Assembly (NCBI RefSeq): GCF_900187965.1 | Contig: NZ_FZNL01000013.1 | Span: 62,001 to 126,000, forward strand | DNA: 64,000 bases | Origin: Flavobacterium sp. ov086 | GTDB taxonomy: Bacteria > Bacteroidota > Bacteroidia > Flavobacteriales > Flavobacteriaceae | Direction of reading: 5' to 3' | Shown here: piece after piece, positions 48,136-55,400 of the stretch | Layout: each line of letters opens with the position of its first letter | Position numbering within the stretch: the first letter of the stretch is position 1 | The notes under the pieces: model-generated | What the model was told of the DNA's origin: nothing | What the model saw: only the letters and a program-made list of their open reading frames with translations | The model's database searches: none | Made by a program: the position numbers and the translations under genes

Positions 48136-48918
48136 TTAGTTGAAACGTAATCGAACGTAAACATGTTTAATTCCTTTTTTGTCTGATTCTCTTTCGTCGA
48201 TTTCAAGAATTTCAGTCAAAGATTTTAACATTGGCGTAAGCTTAGAAAAACCATAGTTTCTTGGGTCAAATTCAGGTTTCTTCTTAACGATTAAATTTCC
48301 TACATCGCCCAAAAATGCCCAGCCATCGTCGTCTTCAATATCTTCAATAGTGGCTTCAATAAGTTCGATGGTTTGCTTGTCAATTTTATGTAAAGCTTTT
48401 TCGGCGGGTTTTTCTACAGGTTTTTTGGCATCAGCGGCAGCGGTAACTTTTGGTTTTTTCTTCTGGATTGCTCCATCCAAAACTTCAATATAAATAAATC
48501 TGTCACAGGCTACTATAAAGGAGTTTGGCGTTTTCTTTTCGCCAATACCAATAACTTTCATGCCAGATTCACGAAGGCGAATTGCCAAACGGGTAAAATC
48601 GCTATCGCTCGAAACAATGCAAAATCCATCTAGTTTACCGGAATAAAGCAAATCCATTGCATCGATAATTAAGGCAGAATCTGAGGAGTTTTTTCCAACA
48701 GTATAACTGTATTGTTGAATAGGAGTGATGGCATGTTCGAGTAAAACACCTTTCCAGCCATTAGAATTTGGTTTGGTCCAGTCTGCATAAATACGTTTTG
48801 TAGTTGGTGTTCCAAATTTCGTTATTTCTTCCATCATACCTTTTACGTTGCTGTACGGAACGTTGTCGGCATCAATAAGAACGGCTAATTTTAGATCTTT
48901 AGAGTTGCTTAAAGCCAT
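48136..48918 (-). CDS. NYN-domain protein with LOTUS/OST-HTH end
   Basis: This 260-residue protein has an N-terminal NYN (PIN-like) nuclease domain with L-I-D-A-D-N-V near residue 15, D-S-A-L-I-I-D-A near 80 and S-S-D-S-D-F-T near 103; the aspartates are the metal ligands. After a Lys/Ala linker (about 153-180), the C-terminal 80 residues match the OST-HTH/LOTUS domain (D-D-G-W-A-F-L-G-D-V, N-Y-G-F-S-K-L). It resembles the LabA/MARF1 group of RNA-binding, possibly RNA-cleaving, proteins. Confidence 0.87.
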   Translation of the reverse strand: MALSNSKDLKLAVLIDADNVPYSNVKGMMEEITKFGTPTTKRIYADWTKPNSNGWKGVLLEHAITPIQQYSYTVGKNSSDSALIIDAMDLLYSGKLDGFCIVSSDSDFTRLAIRLRESGMKVIGIGEKKTPNSFIVACDRFIYIEVLDGAIQKKKPKVTAAADAKKPVEKPAEKALHKIDKQTIELIEATIEDIEDDDGWAFLGDVGNLIVKKKPEFDPRNYGFSKLTPMLKSLTEILEIDERESDKKGIKHVYVRLRFN

Positions 48919-49052
48919 TATTTAGGTATTAAAAAAATTAGATAAATTCAAAGGTAAAACTAAAATTGGTTTTATGGGAATTTGATCTTAAATAAGTCTT
49001 TTTCCGGATATTAATTATTTTGATTATAAATAAGATATTTTTTATAAAAATT

Positions 49053-49078
49053 AATTAAGGATAAATTTGTCTTTTAAT
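49053..49078 (+). promoter_or_regulatory. NO-regulon inverted repeat before rrf2
   Basis: AATTAAGGAT-AAATTT-GTCTTTTAAT matches the consensus AATAAAAGAC-N6-GTCTTTTATT at 16 of 20 arm positions. It overlaps the -33 element (TTTG 49066-49069) and lies 42 bp before the rrf2 ATG, so it may mediate autoregulation. Compare 50157 and 55195. Confidence 0.65.
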
Positions 49079-49097
49079 GCTTCTTTGAATATATTTG
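49066..49097 (+). promoter_or_regulatory. Promoter of the Rrf2 regulator gene
   Basis: TTTG (49066-49069), 20-nt spacer, TATATTTG (49090-49097). It overlaps the inverted repeat at 49053-49078, as expected of a repressible promoter. Confidence 0.7.
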
Positions 49098-49119
49098 TAA
49101 TCAATTTAATCCATTTTTT

Positions 49120-49569
49120 ATGTTTTCAAAAGCATGTGAGTACGGCATTCGGGCTTCTATATTTATTGCTACCAAATCGTCAGAAGGAATTCGGGTCGGG
49201 ATAAAAGATGTGGCAAAAGAAATAGATTCTCCGGAACCTTTTACGGCCAAAATAATGCAGATTCTGACTAAGAATGGTATTATTATTTCGGCAAAAGGAG
49301 TTGGTGGCGGTTTTGAGGTTTCAAATGAAGCTGTAAAATCTATAAAACTAATCCAAATTGTAGATGCAATTGATGGCGATGCCATTTATAAAGGCTGCGG
49401 TATTGGGCTTAAAGAATGTTCAGAAACGCATCCTTGTCCGGTTCATAATGAGTTTAAAAAAATCCGTGAATTATTACTGGCAATGCTTTCCAATACTACA
49501 TTAGAACAGTTGGCTTCGGGAGTAAATTCCGGAGATTTTTATTTGAAAACATTAATTAAAAACGAATAA
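49120..49569 (+). CDS. Rrf2-family iron-sulfur regulator (NsrR-like)
   Basis: This 149-residue protein has an N-terminal winged helix with V-A-K-E-I-D and K-G-V-G-G-G-F-E (residues 60-66). The Rrf2 cluster loop K-G-C-G-I-G-L-K-E-C-x5-C-P-V-H puts cysteines at 93, 100 and 106, the spacing that binds an Fe-S cluster in NsrR. NsrR senses nitric oxide. The neighbours (azurin, Ric, NirK and an oxidase-like protein) fit NO sensing, and the gene has the shared operator upstream. Autoregulation is inferred. Confidence 0.88.
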   Translation: MFSKACEYGIRASIFIATKSSEGIRVGIKDVAKEIDSPEPFTAKIMQILTKNGIIISAKGVGGGFEVSNEAVKSIKLIQIVDAIDGDAIYKGCGIGLKECSETHPCPVHNEFKKIRELLLAMLSNTTLEQLASGVNSGDFYLKTLIKNE

Positions 49570-49594
49570 AATATTATAATTTAAATACTTAATA

Positions 49595-50110
49595 ATGAAT
49601 AAAAGAATTAAAATTTCGATGATAATGCTAATGGGATTTTTAGCAGTAACTTCTTGCGGAAAAAAAGAAACAGCACCAACTGATGAGCAAACAGAAGCTA
49701 ACGAATCAACTGGTGAGGGAGAAACTCCTGCTGTAAGCAATGTTTTGGTTATTGAAGGAAACGATCAAATGCAGTTTAATGAAACAGAATTGCATGCTGT
49801 TGCCGGAAAACCAATTACCTTAACGCTAAAACATGTTGGTCAAACGCCAAAAGAAGCAATGGGACATAATTTAGTGATTTTGCAAGAAGGTACAGATGAA
49901 GCTGCTTTTGCAACAAAAGCAATGGCGGCAAAAGACACTGATTATATTCCTGCATCAGAAAAAGCATCAATTGTAGCGCATACTAAATTACTTGGTGGAG
50001 GAGAAGAGGATACAATCGAATTTACTATTGATAAAAAAGGAACTTATAACTTTTTATGTACTTTTCCGGGGCATTATGCAATGATGAAAGGTGTTTTAAT
50101 AGTAGAATAA
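49595..50110 (+). CDS. Azurin-type blue copper lipoprotein
   Basis: This 171-residue protein has a lipobox T-S-C (Cys21), a Glu/Thr-rich spacer to about residue 48, and an azurin fold. Copper ligands fit H91 (in M-G-H-N-L-V), C155, H160 and M164 (in F-L-C-T-F-P-G-H-Y-A-M-M). Azurin shuttles electrons to nitrite or cytochrome enzymes in the periplasm, consistent with the copper nitrite reductase nearby. It lies 25 bp after rrf2. Confidence 0.9.
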   Translation: MNKRIKISMIMLMGFLAVTSCGKKETAPTDEQTEANESTGEGETPAVSNVLVIEGNDQMQFNETELHAVAGKPITLTLKHVGQTPKEAMGHNLVILQEGTDEAAFATKAMAAKDTDYIPASEKASIVAHTKLLGGGEEDTIEFTIDKKGTYNFLCTFPGHYAMMKGVLIVE

Positions 50111-50116
50111 AGTATA

Positions 50117-50148
50117 AACTCTAATGCTTTTAAGTGCTGGAGTTTTTT
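50117..50148 (+). terminator. Terminator after azurin
   Basis: AACTCTAATGC pairs imperfectly with GTGCTGGAGTT around TTTTAA and is followed by TTTTT. It separates azurin from ric, which has its own operator. Confidence 0.55.
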
Positions 50149-50152
50149 AATA

Positions 50153-50186
50153 TCACAATAAAAGATAGTTTTGTCTTTTATTGTGA
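50153..50186 (+). promoter_or_regulatory. NO-regulon inverted repeat before ric
   Basis: TCACAATAAAAGAT-N6-GTCTTTTATTGTGA is a dyad with 13 of 14 paired positions; its core (50157-50182) matches the sites at 49053 and 55195. It lies 33 bp before the ric ATG (core 37 bp). Confidence 0.75.
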
Positions 50187-50218
50187 TTTCAATAAATAAT
50201 AAATTAAATAAAAGTAAA

Positions 50219-50941
50219 ATGGAAAATTTAAAAAATAAAACAATTGGTTCATTTGTAGCACAGGATTTTAGAACAGCTGCGGTATTTACAAAATATCAAA
50301 TCGATTTTTGCTGTAAAGGCAACAGAACTCTTGCTGAAGTTTGCGAAAAACAAGAAATCGACGCAGATGTTTTACTGCAAAATGTTTATGATGTTCTTCA
50401 GTCTGAAAAAGGGAATACAATTGACTTTAATTCTTGGCCTTTAGATTTATTAGTAGATTATATTGAGAAAACGCATCACCGTTATGTAGAAGAGAAAACA
50501 ACGGTTCTTATTCAGTTTTTAGATAAATTATGCAGTGTTCATGGCGCAGGTCATCCGGAATTGTTTAAAATAAATGAATTGTTTACAGCAGGTGCGGGCG
50601 AGCTTTCTCAACATATGAAAAAAGAAGAATTGATGTTATTCCCTTTTATCAAAAGAATGGTTAAAACCAAAGAAGCTAATGGTGTTTTATCTCAACCTTC
50701 TTTTGGGACGGTATCAAATCCAATTGCAATGATGATGCAGGAACATGATAATGAAGGAGAACGCTTTAGAGAAATCGCAATTTTAACTAATAATTATACT
50801 GCGCCAAGTGATGGCTGTACCACTTATAAAGTAACTTTTGCAATGCTAAAAGAGTTTGAAGAAGATTTGCACAAGCATATTCATCTTGAGAATAATATTT
50901 TGTTTCCTAAAGCTGTAATTTTAGAACAAGAGTTCGCTTAG
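50219..50941 (+). CDS. ric: Iron-sulfur cluster repair di-iron protein Ric (ScdA/YtfE)
   Basis: This protein has 240 residues from ATG 50219; the frame opens at 50171 inside the operator and is not used. The N-terminal ScdA_N part has Y-Q-I-D-F-C-C-K-G near residue 26. The hemerythrin-like domain has histidines in T-H-H-R-Y, H-G-A-G-H-P-E, Q-H-M-K-K-E-E, E-H-D-N-E-G and K-H-I-H-L-E-N, the set that binds two irons. It restores Fe-S clusters harmed by nitric oxide or peroxide. The shared operator upstream supports NO control. Confidence 0.93.
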   Translation: MENLKNKTIGSFVAQDFRTAAVFTKYQIDFCCKGNRTLAEVCEKQEIDADVLLQNVYDVLQSEKGNTIDFNSWPLDLLVDYIEKTHHRYVEEKTTVLIQFLDKLCSVHGAGHPELFKINELFTAGAGELSQHMKKEELMLFPFIKRMVKTKEANGVLSQPSFGTVSNPIAMMMQEHDNEGERFREIAILTNNYTAPSDGCTTYKVTFAMLKEFEEDLHKHIHLENNILFPKAVILEQEFA

Positions 50942-50959
50942 AATAATAAGGTTAGAAAG

Positions 50960-51012
50960 AAATGCACTAAGCGAATCCTATCAAAATGGATTGTTCTTAG
51001 TGCATTTTTATT
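50960..51012 (+). terminator. Hairpin terminator after ric
   Basis: AAATGCACTAAG (50960-50971) pairs perfectly with CTTAGTGCATTT (50996-51007), with an inner AATCC/GGATT stem in the loop and T's after. It overlaps no coding region that I accept. Confidence 0.7.
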
Positions 51013-51038
51013 TAAAAGAAAATAAAACCAGATCTGTA

Positions 51039-52259
51039 ATGAACTCACAAAGAAGTTGGATAATATGTTGCTTTTTTAATTTTCTGATAGCGGCAGTTAT
51101 GGGATTGTTAATGCGTTTCTCTTTTTTGTTTCCTTTAAAAAGTATAAACTATATTTATACGCTTCATGCGCATTCTCATGTTGCGATGTTGGGCTGGGTT
51201 TATTTGATGATTTACGTTTTGGTAGTTCATTTTTTTATTCCAAAAGATAAAAGTCAGAAACCAATTTATAATCAATTATTCTGGATTACTGAATTTAGTG
51301 TTATCGGAATGATGATTTCATTTCCAATTCAAGGATATGCTTTGTTTTCGATTGTATTTTCGACGTTACATATTTTATTGAGTTATGTTTTTTGCTGGCT
51401 AGTTTGGAGAGATTGTTCTAATGGCAGAATATGTGATAAAAGACTTTTGCAAATGGCAATTCTGTTTATGGTATTTTCTACATTTGGAGTTTGGTGTTTA
51501 GGACCAACAATAAATATGTTGGGAAAACAAAGTTCTTTTTATCAAATAGCCATTCAGTTTTTTCTGCATTTTCAATTTAATGGCTGGTTTTTATTTGCTG
51601 TTTTGGCTTTGTTTCTTAAACAGTTTAAAAATAAAATAGCGGTAAACGAATTTAGAATTTTTTCGACATTACTTATAATAGCTACTTTGCTTACGGTTGC
51701 ATTTCCTGTAAGCTGGTATATTAAAAATAGTATTTTGAATGCGACCAATACAGTTGGAGTTCTGTTGCAATTGGTTTCTTTTATTTATTTCTACAGAATG
51801 CTGAAACCTCAAATAAAGCAGTTCAAAACGAATTTAGATGCAACAGCGAAATTGGCTTATAGTTTGGCATTATGGTCTTTATTTCTAAAAATTGGAATAC
51901 AATTAATGGTTGTTATACCTGATCTTGCTGAAGTTTCACATCAAATTAGAAATTGGGTTATTGGATTTATTCACTTAACAACATTAGGAATCATAACAGG
52001 ATTTTTATTGGGTATATTGTTTCAGAACAAACTTTTATCAAGTCAATCCTATTGGTTTAAAATTGGAATAAAATCTTTTTTTCTGGGATATGCGTTGACT
52101 GAAATATTCTTGTTTTTACAAGGAATCTTTTTTTATCAAAATAAGGGATTACTTTTTGGGTATTACGAAAGTGTTTTTGGAGCCAGTATTTTTATAATCA
52201 TCGGTTTGATATTAATGATTACTTCAATACTAAAAACAAAAAAAACAAGAGTCGATTAA
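51039..52259 (+). CDS. Heme-copper-oxidase-like membrane protein
   Basis: This protein has 406 residues from ATG 51039; the longer frame from 50991 would start inside the ric terminator. About 12 membrane helices. H-A-H-S-H-V-A-M-L-G-W at 43-53 resembles the low-spin heme histidine region of cbb3/NorB subunit I, and F-L-H-F-Q-F-N-G-W near 176 and H-Q-I-R-N-W/H-L-T-T-L-G at 301-315 offer further histidines. The HH pair and H-P-E-V-Y of true CuB sites are missing. It may be an accessory or sensor form. NO-linked neighbours suggest a nitrogen-oxide role. Confidence 0.6.
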   Translation: MNSQRSWIICCFFNFLIAAVMGLLMRFSFLFPLKSINYIYTLHAHSHVAMLGWVYLMIYVLVVHFFIPKDKSQKPIYNQLFWITEFSVIGMMISFPIQGYALFSIVFSTLHILLSYVFCWLVWRDCSNGRICDKRLLQMAILFMVFSTFGVWCLGPTINMLGKQSSFYQIAIQFFLHFQFNGWFLFAVLALFLKQFKNKIAVNEFRIFSTLLIIATLLTVAFPVSWYIKNSILNATNTVGVLLQLVSFIYFYRMLKPQIKQFKTNLDATAKLAYSLALWSLFLKIGIQLMVVIPDLAEVSHQIRNWVIGFIHLTTLGIITGFLLGILFQNKLLSSQSYWFKIGIKSFFLGYALTEIFLFLQGIFFYQNKGLLFGYYESVFGASIFIIIGLILMITSILKTKKTRVD

Positions 52260-52275
52260 TTAAAATCGCCTCTTG
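52246..52275. terminator. Terminator between converging genes
   Basis: CAAGAG-T-CGATT (from 52246) pairs with AATCG-C-CTCTTG (to 52275) around AATTAA and overlaps the stop of the upstream gene. Confidence 0.6.
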
Positions 52276-52300
52276 CTTTCTTCCGAATCAACCTTAAAAA

Positions 52301-52903
52301 TTATATTTTTTGAGCTTCGTTATTTATTGTTTTCACTGTCTCTGCATTATTCACGCCCAAGCCTTCTTGCTGAAATATCAATTCGCCATCAGGATTAAAA
52401 ACGCTTATAATATTAGAATGAGAAAAATCCATAGGAGAAATTTGTTTGTAATTTATTGCCAGAACAGCAGCAAATTCACGTGTGTTTTCTTCTGTAGAAC
52501 GAAGAAATATCCAAGGGTTTTGATTCATTTTATTGACTATTGCAAAAGCTTTTAATTTTTGAGGTGTATCAGTTTTCGGATCTATACTTACCAAAATAAG
52601 TTTGACATTTTTTTTGGTTTTTTGATCTAGTTTTTTCTCGATATCTCTCATATCTGCCACTAATCTGGGACACGCAGCTTTGCAGGAAGTATAAATCATA
52701 ACCATAACAAGGACATTCCCTTTAAGGCTTTTTAGTTCGATGTTTTTCCCATCTTGCGTAGTCCATTGAGAAGGCAAATTATAAATGGACAGATCTGTTA
52801 TTTCTTTAGTTTCTACTTTTGGTTTGTTTTCTTCTTTCTTAGAATCCTTACAGCTTTGTAAAGTAAAAAGAAGCATAAAAAACACAATTATTGATTTTTT
52901 CAT
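52301..52903 (-). CDS. SCO/SenC-type copper chaperone or thiol oxidoreductase
   Basis: This protein has 200 residues from ATG 52903. A lipobox L-Q-S-C (Cys18), the C-K-A-A-C motif (C74 and C78, the CxxxC of SCO proteins) and H162 (in F-S-H-S-N) form the copper site. SCO proteins load copper into oxidases and other copper enzymes; here the partner is presumably NirK, since the order nirK-SUMF1-SCO runs in one direction with 13 and 19 bp gaps. Confidence 0.9.
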   Translation of the reverse strand: MKKSIIVFFMLLFTLQSCKDSKKEENKPKVETKEITDLSIYNLPSQWTTQDGKNIELKSLKGNVLVMVMIYTSCKAACPRLVADMRDIEKKLDQKTKKNVKLILVSIDPKTDTPQKLKAFAIVNKMNQNPWIFLRSTEENTREFAAVLAINYKQISPMDFSHSNIISVFNPDGELIFQQEGLGVNNAETVKTINNEAQKI

Positions 52904-52922
52904 TTTTAAAATGATTTTGTAA

Positions 52923-53693
52923 TTATAGTTTTGTTGTACTGGCACATCGAAATCCTAAATTTCGTGTTGAATATTGTGCTTTAAGACTTCCTCTAAAAGC
53001 GTATCGCATAAAAGCGGCATAATCCATTAAATCTGTTGCATTGACAGAAGCAGCACCACAAAAGAGATTTTTATCATTGCTTTTGTCTTTTCTGGATTCT
53101 CCGGATAAAAAAATGCTGTTAAAATCAGAAGTCCATTCCCATACCAATCCGTGCATGTCGTAAACGCCCCAATAATTTTTGAAGGTTTTGCCAATTGGAT
53201 TCTCGTATGTTTTTGATTTTTCATACCACGACAAAATGTATTTGTTGAATTCTGCTTTGGTTCTCGCGTCTATCTTTTTTTCATCGGCCATAGCTGCATA
53301 TTCCCATTCTTCCATTGTTGGTAAACGTTTTCCTTGGCACTCGCAATATTTTTTGGCGGCAAACCAGGAAATATTTGTAACGGGAGATTTAGGATTTACG
53401 TTTCCAAAATCAAAATCAGTTTTCCAATATTGTAAATAGCTTTTATCGGCAAAAATCCCTTTTATTTTAGATTTACCGTAATCAGGATTCTTCTTGACAA
53501 AACTTAGATATTCACTATTGGTAACGGGATAAACATCGATATAAAATGACTTGACGTTGACAGGTTTTTTTGTTGTAGCTCCGTAAAGAGGGACAAAATT
53601 GCCCTCTTTTATCGGAACCATTTTCGATTCTTGTCCACTTATAGATGGAATTTGGACTAAGAAAAGAATAAGAATTAAAATGCTCTTTTGCAT
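52923..53693 (-). CDS. Formylglycine-generating enzyme (SUMF1)-like protein
   Basis: This 256-residue protein has a signal peptide (residues 1-20, ending I-S-G-Q). The FGE-sulfatase fold is shown by V-Y-P-V-T-N-S-E-Y near residue 54, R-L-P-T-M-E-E-W-E-Y-A near 123, G-L-V-W-E-W-T-S near 181 and the C-terminal L-G-F-R-C-A-S. It lacks the sulfatase neighbours of a true FGE. It sits 13 bp after nirK. A role in maturing or assembling a copper reductase is inferred from this gene order. Confidence 0.82.
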   Translation of the reverse strand: MQKSILILILFLVQIPSISGQESKMVPIKEGNFVPLYGATTKKPVNVKSFYIDVYPVTNSEYLSFVKKNPDYGKSKIKGIFADKSYLQYWKTDFDFGNVNPKSPVTNISWFAAKKYCECQGKRLPTMEEWEYAAMADEKKIDARTKAEFNKYILSWYEKSKTYENPIGKTFKNYWGVYDMHGLVWEWTSDFNSIFLSGESRKDKSNDKNLFCGAASVNATDLMDYAAFMRYAFRGSLKAQYSTRNLGFRCASTTKL

Positions 53694-53706
53694 ATTATTG
53701 ATGCGA

Positions 53707-55155
53707 TTATCGTTGTGCTTTTACCATTTCTGGAGTAACTTCGGTTTTATTATTTCCCCAACTGTTATAGATATAAGTCATAACATTGGCAATTTCATCA
53801 TCAGATAAGTTTTGTGCCGGCATAATGCTGTTAAATTTCTTCCCATTTACGGTTACTTCGCCGCTTAAACCATGAAGAATTGTTTTGATGGCACGTTTAG
53901 AATCTGCATTTAAATAATCTGATTTTGCAAGAGGAGGGAAAGCATTTGGAATTCCTTGTCCTTCAGATTGATGGCAGGCAAAACAGGTTGTCTCGAAAAT
54001 TTCTTTTCCAATTTTTATTCTGTCTGCTACAGTTCTTTTTGGCGGAGCTGTTTTTACTGCTGTGTTAGCTGGCATATTCTGGATAGTTCCACCTTCGGGC
54101 AAATAAATTCCTTCCTGAATTGTTCCGGAATAAATCTTTTTATTTTCGTTGCCTTCAACTTTTAGAATTCCTAAAGCACCTTTATTAAATGCTCTGAAAA
54201 TAGAGTGATCTACCAAAATGAAATTTCCGGGAGTTTCTACTTTAAAATCAACAATAGCAGATCCACCTGCAGGAATCAAAGTAGTTTGAACATTTTTATT
54301 GATAAGAGCGCCACCTTCTACATGAACATTATCGAATATTTCTCCAATTACGTGAAACGACGAAACTAAGTTTGGACCACCGTTTCCAACAAATAATCGG
54401 ACCGTTTCGCCTACTTTTGCGGTAAGTTCATTTCCGTTGGTCAGCGAACCTACTTTTCCGTTAAAAACGACATAATCCGGAGTTTCTTTAACTGCTTTAT
54501 TCATGTCAAAAGGCTGAAGTCCTTTGGCTCCATATTCGCCTTGTGTATAAAAATCACCTTGCATAACGTAGTATTCCTTATCAACTGGAGGAAGTCCGCC
54601 TTCTGGTTCAACCAAAATCAAACCATACATTCCGTTTGCAATATGCATTCCCACAGGCGCAGTCGCACAATGATACACGTACAAACCTGGATTTATTACT
54701 TTAAAACTAAAAACTTTTTCATGACCCGGAGCTACTAAAGAGGATGATGCGCCTCCACCAGGACCAGTTACAGCATGTAAGTCAATGTTGTGCGGTAATT
54801 TATTGTCAGGATGATTCTTTAAGTGAAACTCAACTTCGTCTCCAACACGAGTTCTAATGAAGCTTCCGGGAACGGAACCGCCAAATGTCCAATAAGTATA
54901 TGTCACGCCATCGGCCATAGTGCCTTCCTGTTCTTTTATTTCCATGTTTACTTTTAGTTTCATGGCGGGACGATTACCAACAGGCTTCGGAACTTTTGGC
55001 GGCGCTGTAAGTTCCGCTTCCATTTGTCCGTCAGTACTAATTTTGGTGTAATCGGTTGGAGTTTCGTCTTTTTTGCATGATGATACGACCATTGCCACGC
55101 ATATTGCATAAAAAAAGATTTTCATTTTACCGGAAGTTAGGTGCTTCTTTCTCAT
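53707..55155 (-). CDS. nirK: Copper nitrite reductase NirK with fused cytochrome c domain
   Basis: This 482-residue protein has a lipobox V-S-S-C (Cys27). Two cupredoxin domains carry the type-1 copper (H122, C163, H171, M176) and the type-2 site (H127, H162, H317); the N-I-D-L-H-A-V and [10 protein letters not shown] motifs are canonical. A C-terminal cytochrome c domain has C-F-A-C-H at 391-395 and a methionine near 445. It reduces nitrite to nitric oxide and likely takes electrons through the fused heme or azurin. Start 55155 or 55125 (M-K-I-F-F); the lipoprotein signal fits either. An inverted repeat lies 40 bp upstream. Confidence 0.95.
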
Positions 55156-55194
55156 AATTATTTGGTTCTATTTTAGTTTTAAATCTGAAGTAAA

Positions 55195-55220
55195 AATAAA
55201 AGACTGTTTTGTCTTTTATT
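55195..55220 (-). promoter_or_regulatory. NO-regulon inverted repeat before nirK
   Basis: AATAAAAGAC-TGTTTT-GTCTTTTATT is a perfect 10-bp inverted repeat with a 6-bp centre, ending 40 bp before the nirK ATG. It is the best copy of the motif found also before rrf2 and ric. No TAnnTTTG box is visible behind it, so activation rather than repression cannot be excluded. Confidence 0.75.
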
Positions 55221-55400
55221 ATGATAAAAGTCATGTATTTCGTACTTTTTGATCGGTTATTTCAAATTTTTTGATTTTATGAAGGATATAATCTTACAAG
55301 AAAAGATGTGTAGACTGAAAGCTTTACTGATAAGGACTCGATATGGGCAATATTTTTTAATAAAAATAATTACCAAACTCTATTTTAGAATAATAATCAT

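Follow-up and report, generated by a model that had tools for sequence, protein, structure and literature searches.

A shared inverted repeat before rrf2, ric and nirK as the likely operator of a nitric oxide regulon in Flavobacterium

Introduction

Why do three genes of one Flavobacterium locus share an inverted repeat in their upstream DNA? The locus lies in a 64,000-nucleotide stretch of Flavobacterium sp. ov086 (contig NZ_FZNL01000013.1, positions 62,001 to 126,000 of the forward strand), called the window here, and the genes are rrf2, which encodes a regulator of the Rrf2 family, ric, for an iron-sulfur repair protein, and nirK. A sequence-only reading of this DNA had taken the repeat for a shared operator that marks a nitric oxide (NO) regulon. 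Many genomes of the group carry parts of the denitrification pathway. Because almost every site we find stands before a gene that makes or removes NO or before the gene of the likely repressor, it probably marks a gas-sensing control circuit in Bacteroidota. It is likely that the repeat is the operator of this Rrf2 protein, acting as an NO-relieved repressor of NO genes.

Rrf2 genes have been reported next to clade II nosZ in metagenome scaffolds, and PMC6264515 describes knowledge of Rrf2 control of denitrification as limited to Proteobacteria and Firmicutes. A search of the open-licence literature by title and beginning of the abstract found no Rrf2 operator in Bacteroidota.

Results

Rarity of the repeat and precision of its targets

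The repeats before nirK, ric and rrf2 have the coordinates and arm matches first assigned to them (Table 1). Between site and start codon lie 39, 36 and 41 bases, respectively; the earlier figure of 37 to 42 bp had the places right but is one higher than these counts. A scan of the window at up to three mismatches gave two matches against a mean of 0.03 in shuffled sequence, and none of 100 shuffles reached two. Across the whole genome (6.21 Mb in 58 contigs, with C or T and G or A allowed in the core), sites with no or one mismatch occurred only before ric and nirK; the rrf2 site has three mismatches to this pattern. At up to three mismatches the motif had 23 sites and the reversed control 32, so that the weaker sites are, as a class, noise in this genome. 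Among the 14 of 21 weaker sites that we inspected, the rrf2 site was the sole one beside a gene of the query set, the others lying inside reading frames or beside genes outside that set. The three repeats form a compact local regulon rather than a dispersed repeat.

We fetched 80 named loci holding the closest relatives of the Rrf2 protein; one of the loci with this gene cluster (L017) is from CI04, a strain named Flavobacterium johnsoniae. In the 48 closest (L005 to L052), the site precedes rrf2 in 45 (at most four mismatches) and stands behind the azurin gene in all 48 (at most three), followed by either ric or an inserted quinol NO reductase (qNOR) gene. Sixteen of these loci include 75 bp or more of the DNA upstream of nirK, and all 16 have the site before that gene as well (at most three mismatches). 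Further regions of the genus add as targets cNOR (norC-norB), an hmp gene next to a paralogue of Rrf2, and two clusters of cytochrome c and nosZ. The proposed scan for other NO genes carrying the 26-bp motif was borne out in relatives, which add norB, norC, hmp and nosZ, and not in the genome itself, where ric and nirK are the only genes with a near-perfect site.

A scan of 249 genus genomes for AATAAAAGAY-N6-RTCTTTTATT with at most one mismatch yielded 144 sites; 79 genomes had a site, versus 22 with a match to the reversed control. We inspected the 76 sites listed out of the 144, and 73 of them precede rrf2, ric, norB (qNOR), norC (cNOR), nirK, hmp or a nosZ cluster, with Hmp identified by NF009805 and NosZ by TIGR04246; the nosZ target was assigned only after the genes at two sites had been viewed and was not fixed beforehand. 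Every inspected site with an intact GAY-N6-RTC core (70 of 70, 28 of them mismatch-free) is on target. The three off-target sites (L281, L287 and L290) all have a broken core, as do three on-target ones. On the strength of the window shuffles and of the genus and genome scans for near-perfect sites, we rejected a random spread of the motif in intergenic DNA, which the sequence-only reading had named as the outcome that would overturn it.

At both nosZ clusters (L274, 2488; L277, 2551), the operator and a nearby FNR-like box stand before a cytochrome c gene and nosZ, the site lying 351 bp (L274) or 84 bp before the first gene. Nitrous oxide reduction may therefore belong to the regulon. Operators before the flavohemoglobin gene hmp were seen at L185 (5506; G050), directly behind a 48% identical Rrf2 paralogue, and, with one core mismatch each, at L294 (2542; G065) and L296 (2517; G226). 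One further locus (L205, 5197-5222; G049:C1) has a perfect operator between azurin and kbl with neither ric nor norB called, possibly a relic of a recent deletion or the mark of an unseen small gene.

The dyad was also sought in the upstream DNA of each gene class by a rule of its own, which required the core GAY-N6-RTC, A/T-rich arms and pairing at 9 or more of the 12 arm positions. Genes whose free upstream DNA was shorter than 60 bp were excluded (64 of 128 Ric, 384 of 1,001 other genes). The dyad was present before 32 of 41 NorB, 28 of 42 NirK, 10 of 14 NorC, 34 of 64 Ric, 27 of 104 Rrf2, 1 of 1 Hmp and 1 of 10 NrdD genes, and before 5 of 617 other genes, counts that are not independent because some genomes appear twice (e.g., L054/L206 and L190/L213). 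Dyads before KBL (14/35) and NYN (6/57) genes lie in divergent regions shared with nirK and rrf2. Spacers of 3, 5, 7, 8 and 9 gave no dyad in any gene class, and with a spacer of 4 several classes had a small number (other genes 10/617, Ric 8/64). Genes missed by this strict rule still had a site at up to three mismatches in 8 of 14 cases for NirK, 4 of 4 for NorC, 8 of 9 for NorB and 5 of 30 for Ric. One exact consensus fails for other genera: 21 of the 32 loci L053 to L084 have no site within four mismatches (L060-L062, L064-L069, L071-L074 and L077-L084). With the core fixed and the A/T arms left free, a dyad precedes rrf2 in most of these 21, the exceptions being L080 and L083, and is poor in L072.

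Association of the site with rrf2

Taking a match at E ≤1e-20 as presence of Rrf2, near-perfect sites occur in 78 of 124 genus genomes with Rrf2 versus 1 of 125 without it (12 and 10 for the reversed control), a co-occurrence that is confounded, as 80 of the 125 Rrf2-less genomes hold ric in 12 and nirK in 1, and in which related genomes are not independent. In a survey of the phylum, Rrf2 (E ≤1e-30) was found in 49 of 296 genomes. At the loci L230 to L255, a core dyad, judged by reading and paired at 6 to 11 of its 12 arm positions, lies 62 to 68 bp before rrf2 in 16 of 26. Fifteen of the loci belong to families other than the window's; 7 of these have the dyad, and they represent four families (f2, f4, f5 and f8). 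On a poorly resolved FastTree phylogeny of the Rrf2 proteins (136 rows, 149 columns), the operator label required 10 changes versus 33.6 when shuffled, a contrast inflated by near-copies. A branch of 15 rows lacks a site before its own rrf2 gene; in nine of them (L076, L158, L163, L166, L172, L179, L180, L182 and L183) a site precedes ric or norC of the same cluster.

Overlap with the rrf2 promoter and covariation of the arms

Flavobacterial sigma-A recognizes TAnnTTTG (PMC9723704), and a match to this -7 consensus precedes rrf2 in the window, with a TTTG element upstream of it that lies inside the repeat (Table 1), as the sequence-only reading had it. A core dyad, counted with the core alone fixed and without an arm threshold, is present before 75 of 78 rrf2 genes; in 74 cases it lies 62 to 69 bp before the ATG and pairs at 6 to 11 of the 12 arm positions. 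In 56 of the 78, TTTG spans the end of the spacer, and in 57 TAnnTTTG follows 20 bp on.

The two arms vary together. In 64 distinct rrf2 sites, 621 of 1,024 arm positions pair, versus 539 (standard deviation [SD], 12) when the right halves were redealt, a shuffle that does not preserve relatedness; none of 2,000 shuffles was as high. For the 25 sites outside the close group, pairing was 291 of 400 versus 238 (SD, 9). Joint changes are exemplified by TAATTCGGAT...GTCCGTATTA and AATTAAAGAT...GTCTTTTATT, and promoter constraint does not account for the left arm.

The palindrome might, instead of being bound by a protein, form an RNA hairpin that acts as a terminator or attenuator, and the ric site, which sits behind the azurin terminator and extends to 23-nucleotide arms, would suit such a role. 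The rrf2 palindrome, however, is upstream of the -7 box and is thus expected to lie outside the transcript, so that we read it as DNA, and the nirK palindrome runs only up to the predicted -7 region. We rejected the hairpin on the position of the rrf2 site, and consider it extremely unlikely.

In Aquimarina and a metagenome-assembled genome (L056, L057, L059 and L075, at about 7803 and 7934), nirK and rrf2 diverge, and their common intergenic region holds the AATAAAAGAC form near nirK and a TTCGGAT form near rrf2. Such a region offers a natural experiment on the recognition of both arm types by a single protein. The same pair of arm types could be taken to mean that another regulator, travelling with rrf2, binds the site, all the more as co-occurrence and neighborhood cannot single out one protein. 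We find this quite improbable: family scans with Pfam and NCBIfam recognized no regulator other than rrf2 among the window genes at 48136-55155, and the site follows rrf2 through rearrangements and into other families.

An FNR-like box as a second element

The sequence-only reading had described one shared element. The operator stands, and a second, FNR-like box that abuts the nirK site had been missed (Table 1). The pattern ATGAY-N4-RTCAT, a dyad of the FNR/DNR type (TGAY-N4-RTCA) before anaerobic genes, occurs upstream of 35 of 42 NirK, 12 of 14 NorC and 26 of 64 Ric genes versus 37 of 617 other genes. At nirK, the distance from the start of the box to the operator is 14 bp in 19 cases, as it is in the window, and the operator extends into a -7 region resembling TAnnTTT. 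At norC, the box lies 52 to 53 bp before the operator in five cases, with a TAnTTTG-like stretch between them. These positions place the operator over or after the core promoter and the FNR-like box upstream. We infer that a Crp/Fnr protein binds the box; the window's genome encodes an FNR-like protein whose own gene (L220, G000:C16) has a box of this kind nearby.

A protein of the Crp/Fnr family might also bind the AATAAAAGAC dyad itself in place of Rrf2, since its N6 spacer matches the geometry of HcpR and CRP-type sites as given in PMC1274295, and a profile search of the genome gave six HTH_Crp_2 matches, five of them above the cut-off. The separate N4 box before NirK and NorC genes counts against this, as does the core dyad before rrf2 itself in 74 of 78 loci. 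Moreover, operator and box come apart, because ric of the 12 Rrf2-less genomes has the box in 8 and the core dyad in none. A single box bound by Crp/Fnr was rejected on this separate occurrence, and a Crp/Fnr protein as the binder of the dyad appears very unlikely.

Elsewhere in the genome, a Crp/Fnr gene (L224, 698-2082; G000:C36) with ATGATTTTAATCAT close to it lies beside a weak match to a bacterial globin (PF01152, 19.1 bits; cut-off, 21) and is perhaps a second NO-related unit.

A regulator with a Cys3-His layout

Besides its PF02082 match (Table 1), the Rrf2 protein scored 81.1 bits against TIGR00738 (cut-off, 73.3) and thus belongs to the Rrf2 superfamily. Its scores for narrower families were all below their cut-offs: 54.2 bits for suf_reg (cut-off, 110.65), 43.1 for IscR (TIGR02010; 207.55) and 30.4 for NsrR (NF008240; 182). 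In an alignment of 148 rows (136 distinct), C93, C100 and C106 are present in all 148, H109 and C6 in 147 each, and E7 in 139. The candidate ligand layout is C93-x6-C100-x5-C106 plus His109. We take E7 to be a possible counterpart of the NsrR aspartate ligand. Like NsrR, the protein has three conserved C-terminal cysteines, although their spacing differs, and by site position its putative targets are genes of NO or N2O metabolism, for detoxification or denitrification, or rrf2 itself at 73 of the 76 inspected sites. Like IscR, it has by sequence a Cys3-His set with C-x2-His. The ligands of IscR are described as three Cys (including C104) and His107, in a C-x2-His arrangement (PMC6599224), and PMC4432287 states that this His is not conserved in NsrR. 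Inspection of the alignment by eye for covariation between recognition helix and arm type gave nothing firm.

Because the scores are far below the cut-offs and the layout is Cys3-His, we file the protein as neither NsrR nor IscR; it probably works like NsrR. An Rrf2 protein with NsrR-type cysteines had been named as the only local regulator: it is the only one recognized, but its C-x2-His is the IscR arrangement.

These features bear on the signal. A protein with the Cys3-His set of IscR (PMC6599224), and with an operator that resembles the IscR type 1 layout, might bind the dyad in response to Fe-S or iron supply or to oxygen, as IscR and RirA do, rather than to NO itself. The order of the family scores (suf_reg, IscR, NsrR) points the same way, as do the products of ric and nrdD, which concern Fe-S repair or anaerobiosis. 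However, 73 of the 76 inspected sites precede genes for makers and removers of NO (nirK, qNOR, cNOR, hmp, nosZ), ric or rrf2, and no isc or suf gene was recognized at them, though they were not searched for by name. We regard an iron or oxygen signal as unlikely. rrf2 does not head an isc operon in the window; its neighbors are the genes of azurin, Ric and a membrane protein.

Other genes of the locus

The 406-residue membrane protein encoded behind ric adjoins that gene in many Flavobacteriaceae loci. It had no sequence match in Pfam, NCBIfam or the PDB. Its predicted model (pLDDT, 85.9) resembles the large subunits of cbb3 oxidases and NO reductases, with structural matches to 8smr_E (Z, 34.0 over 396 residues) and 4xyd_A (Z, 33.3). 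In 15 sequences, His 43, 45, 47, 111, 177 and 312 are invariant, and there is no double His. On this model, a role in NO metabolism is possible, as a heme-copper-fold protein absent from the family libraries.

Table 1. Features of the rrf2-ric-nirK locus (positions in the window)
Feature	Position	Strand	Basis
Putative operator before nirK	55195-55220	no strand	AATAAAAGACTGTTTTGTCTTTTATT, 20/20 arm positions to consensus
Putative operator before ric	50157-50182	no strand	AATAAAAGATAGTTTTGTCTTTTATT, 19/20 arm positions
Putative operator before rrf2, over -33 element	49053-49078	no strand	AATTAAGGATAAATTTGTCTTTTAAT, 16/20 arm positions
-33 element TTTG of rrf2, inside operator	49066-49069	+	Sequence; 20-bp spacing to TAnnTTTG kept in 57/78 relatives
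-7 element TATATTTG of rrf2, exactly 20 bp after TTTG	49090-49097	+	TAnnTTTG consensus of flavobacterial sigma-A
FNR-like box ATGACTTTTATCAT (nirK strand), abuts operator upstream	55221-55234	-	0 mismatches to joint pattern
rrf2, Rrf2-family regulator, 149 aa, C93 C100 C106 H109	49120-49569	+	PF02082, 81.2 bits (cut-off 30)
Azurin lipoprotein gene	49595-50110	+	TIGR02695, 110.8 bits (cut-off 105.1)
ric, iron-sulfur repair di-iron protein	50219-50941	+	TIGR03652, 240.4 bits (cut-off 204.7)
406-aa membrane protein, heme-copper oxidase/NO reductase fold	51039-52259	+	Predicted model, no family hit
SCO1/SenC-like protein, nirK side	52301-52903	-	PF02630
FGE-sulfatase-domain protein, nirK side	52923-53693	-	PF03781
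nirK with C-terminal cytochrome c domain	53707-55155	-	TIGR02376, 351.4 bits (cut-off 296.3); PF00034

Discussion

Very probably, the repeat is a real operator and marks a new NO regulon of a known general kind, with an operator wording of its own and a Cys3-His regulator. The claim of a shared operator gains support from target specificity, from the (confounded) co-occurrence with Rrf2, from dyad covariation, from putative autoregulation and from the spread over several families. The site, its targets, the co-occurrence, the covariation, the overlap with the rrf2 promoter and the conservation of the candidate ligands were all established by computation.

From these data, we infer that Rrf2 binds the site as a repressor and that NO is its signal. 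A dimer of the protein with an Fe-S cluster, probably held by C93, C100, C106 and either H109 or E7, would bind the dyad, which it would read as a GAY-N6-RTC core in A/T-rich arms, with AATAAAAGAY-N6-RTCTTTTATT as the Flavobacterium form. The bound dimer would shut the rrf2 promoter by covering the -33 box, the nirK promoter by covering the stretch between the box of the FNR-like activator and the -7 region, and the norC promoter from a position immediately downstream of its -7 box. NO would damage the cluster, the repressor would leave, and nirK, nor, ric and hmp, and in some genomes nos, would be expressed. A Crp/Fnr protein at ATGAY-N4-RTCAT would add a low-oxygen condition at nirK, norC and ric-nrdD.

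Several observations weigh against this model, besides the confounded co-occurrence. Near-perfect sites are missing from 46 of the 124 genomes with Rrf2; in four Rrf2-bearing genomes (L161, L177, L188 and L189) ric has no core dyad, and the two ric genes of G034 show no site. Conversely, G222 has a site and no Rrf2 at E 1e-20, and the sole nirK of the searched Rrf2-less genomes (G002, L219) keeps a degenerate site and an FNR box. The rrf2 and nirK sites of Aquimarina differ in their arms, a difference that two regulators could account for as well. No good -7 box or convincing promoter was found for ric in the window, and the nosZ-cluster site of L274 is 351 bp from its first gene. Finally, the genus pattern at up to two mismatches showed no clear excess over the control (86 versus 80; 61 genomes), so that the regulon signal resides in the near-perfect sites.

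A 26-bp site of such high target specificity would make the regulon predictable in genomes of the group. It would also be a case of NO regulons having been assembled from separate branches of a single protein family. We lean neither for nor against a wider proposal, a lineage of NO repressors of Bacteroidota's own that arose apart from NsrR. It would combine an Rrf2 protein, an IscR-like Cys3-His cluster site and a GAY-N6-RTC operator resembling IscR type 1, and would gate nirK, both NO reductases, nosZ, ric and hmp under a joint logic of FNR-like activator and repressor in several families.

Among known systems, the NsrR regulon of proteobacteria, Bacillus and Streptomyces is alike in its Rrf2-family regulator with three cysteines, in its NO detoxification and some denitrification targets, and in the FNR-like site that PMC1274295 describes ahead of the repressor site at enterobacterial hcp. 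It differs in the ligands, the cysteines here being spaced x6/x5 and joined by His109, an IscR-type His that is not conserved in NsrR according to PMC4432287. The NsrR operator gATGyAT-N5-ATrCATc is absent from all three promoters and has 4 weak matches in the window versus 9.5 expected, and we rejected it as an explanation of the sites. The wording thus differs from that of proteobacterial NsrR sites, as had been noted, and the suggestion of an operator peculiar to Bacteroidota is supported by this absence and by the spread of the core dyad over several families.

IscR shares the Cys3-His set with C-x2-His, and its type 1 site, ATASYYGACTRWWWYAGTCRRSTAT as given in PMC6599224, has ATA...GAC...GTC...TAT in common with ATAAAAGAC-N6-GTCTTTTAT. 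In contrast, the IscR spacer is 7 bp and that found here 6, a 7-bp spacer occurs before no gene class, and the recognized targets here are NO genes. HcpR and DNR, of the Crp/Fnr family, likewise have NO-related targets. PMC1274295 describes NsrR in gamma- and betaproteobacteria, Bacillus and Streptomyces and HcpR in Bacteroides, with wTGTGAnnnnnnTCACAw as the HcpR site and GTAACnnnnGTTAC as that of HcpR2, which covers Bacteroides. The FNR-like box at nirK and norC fits an activator of this kind, but this N4 box is distinct from the operator.

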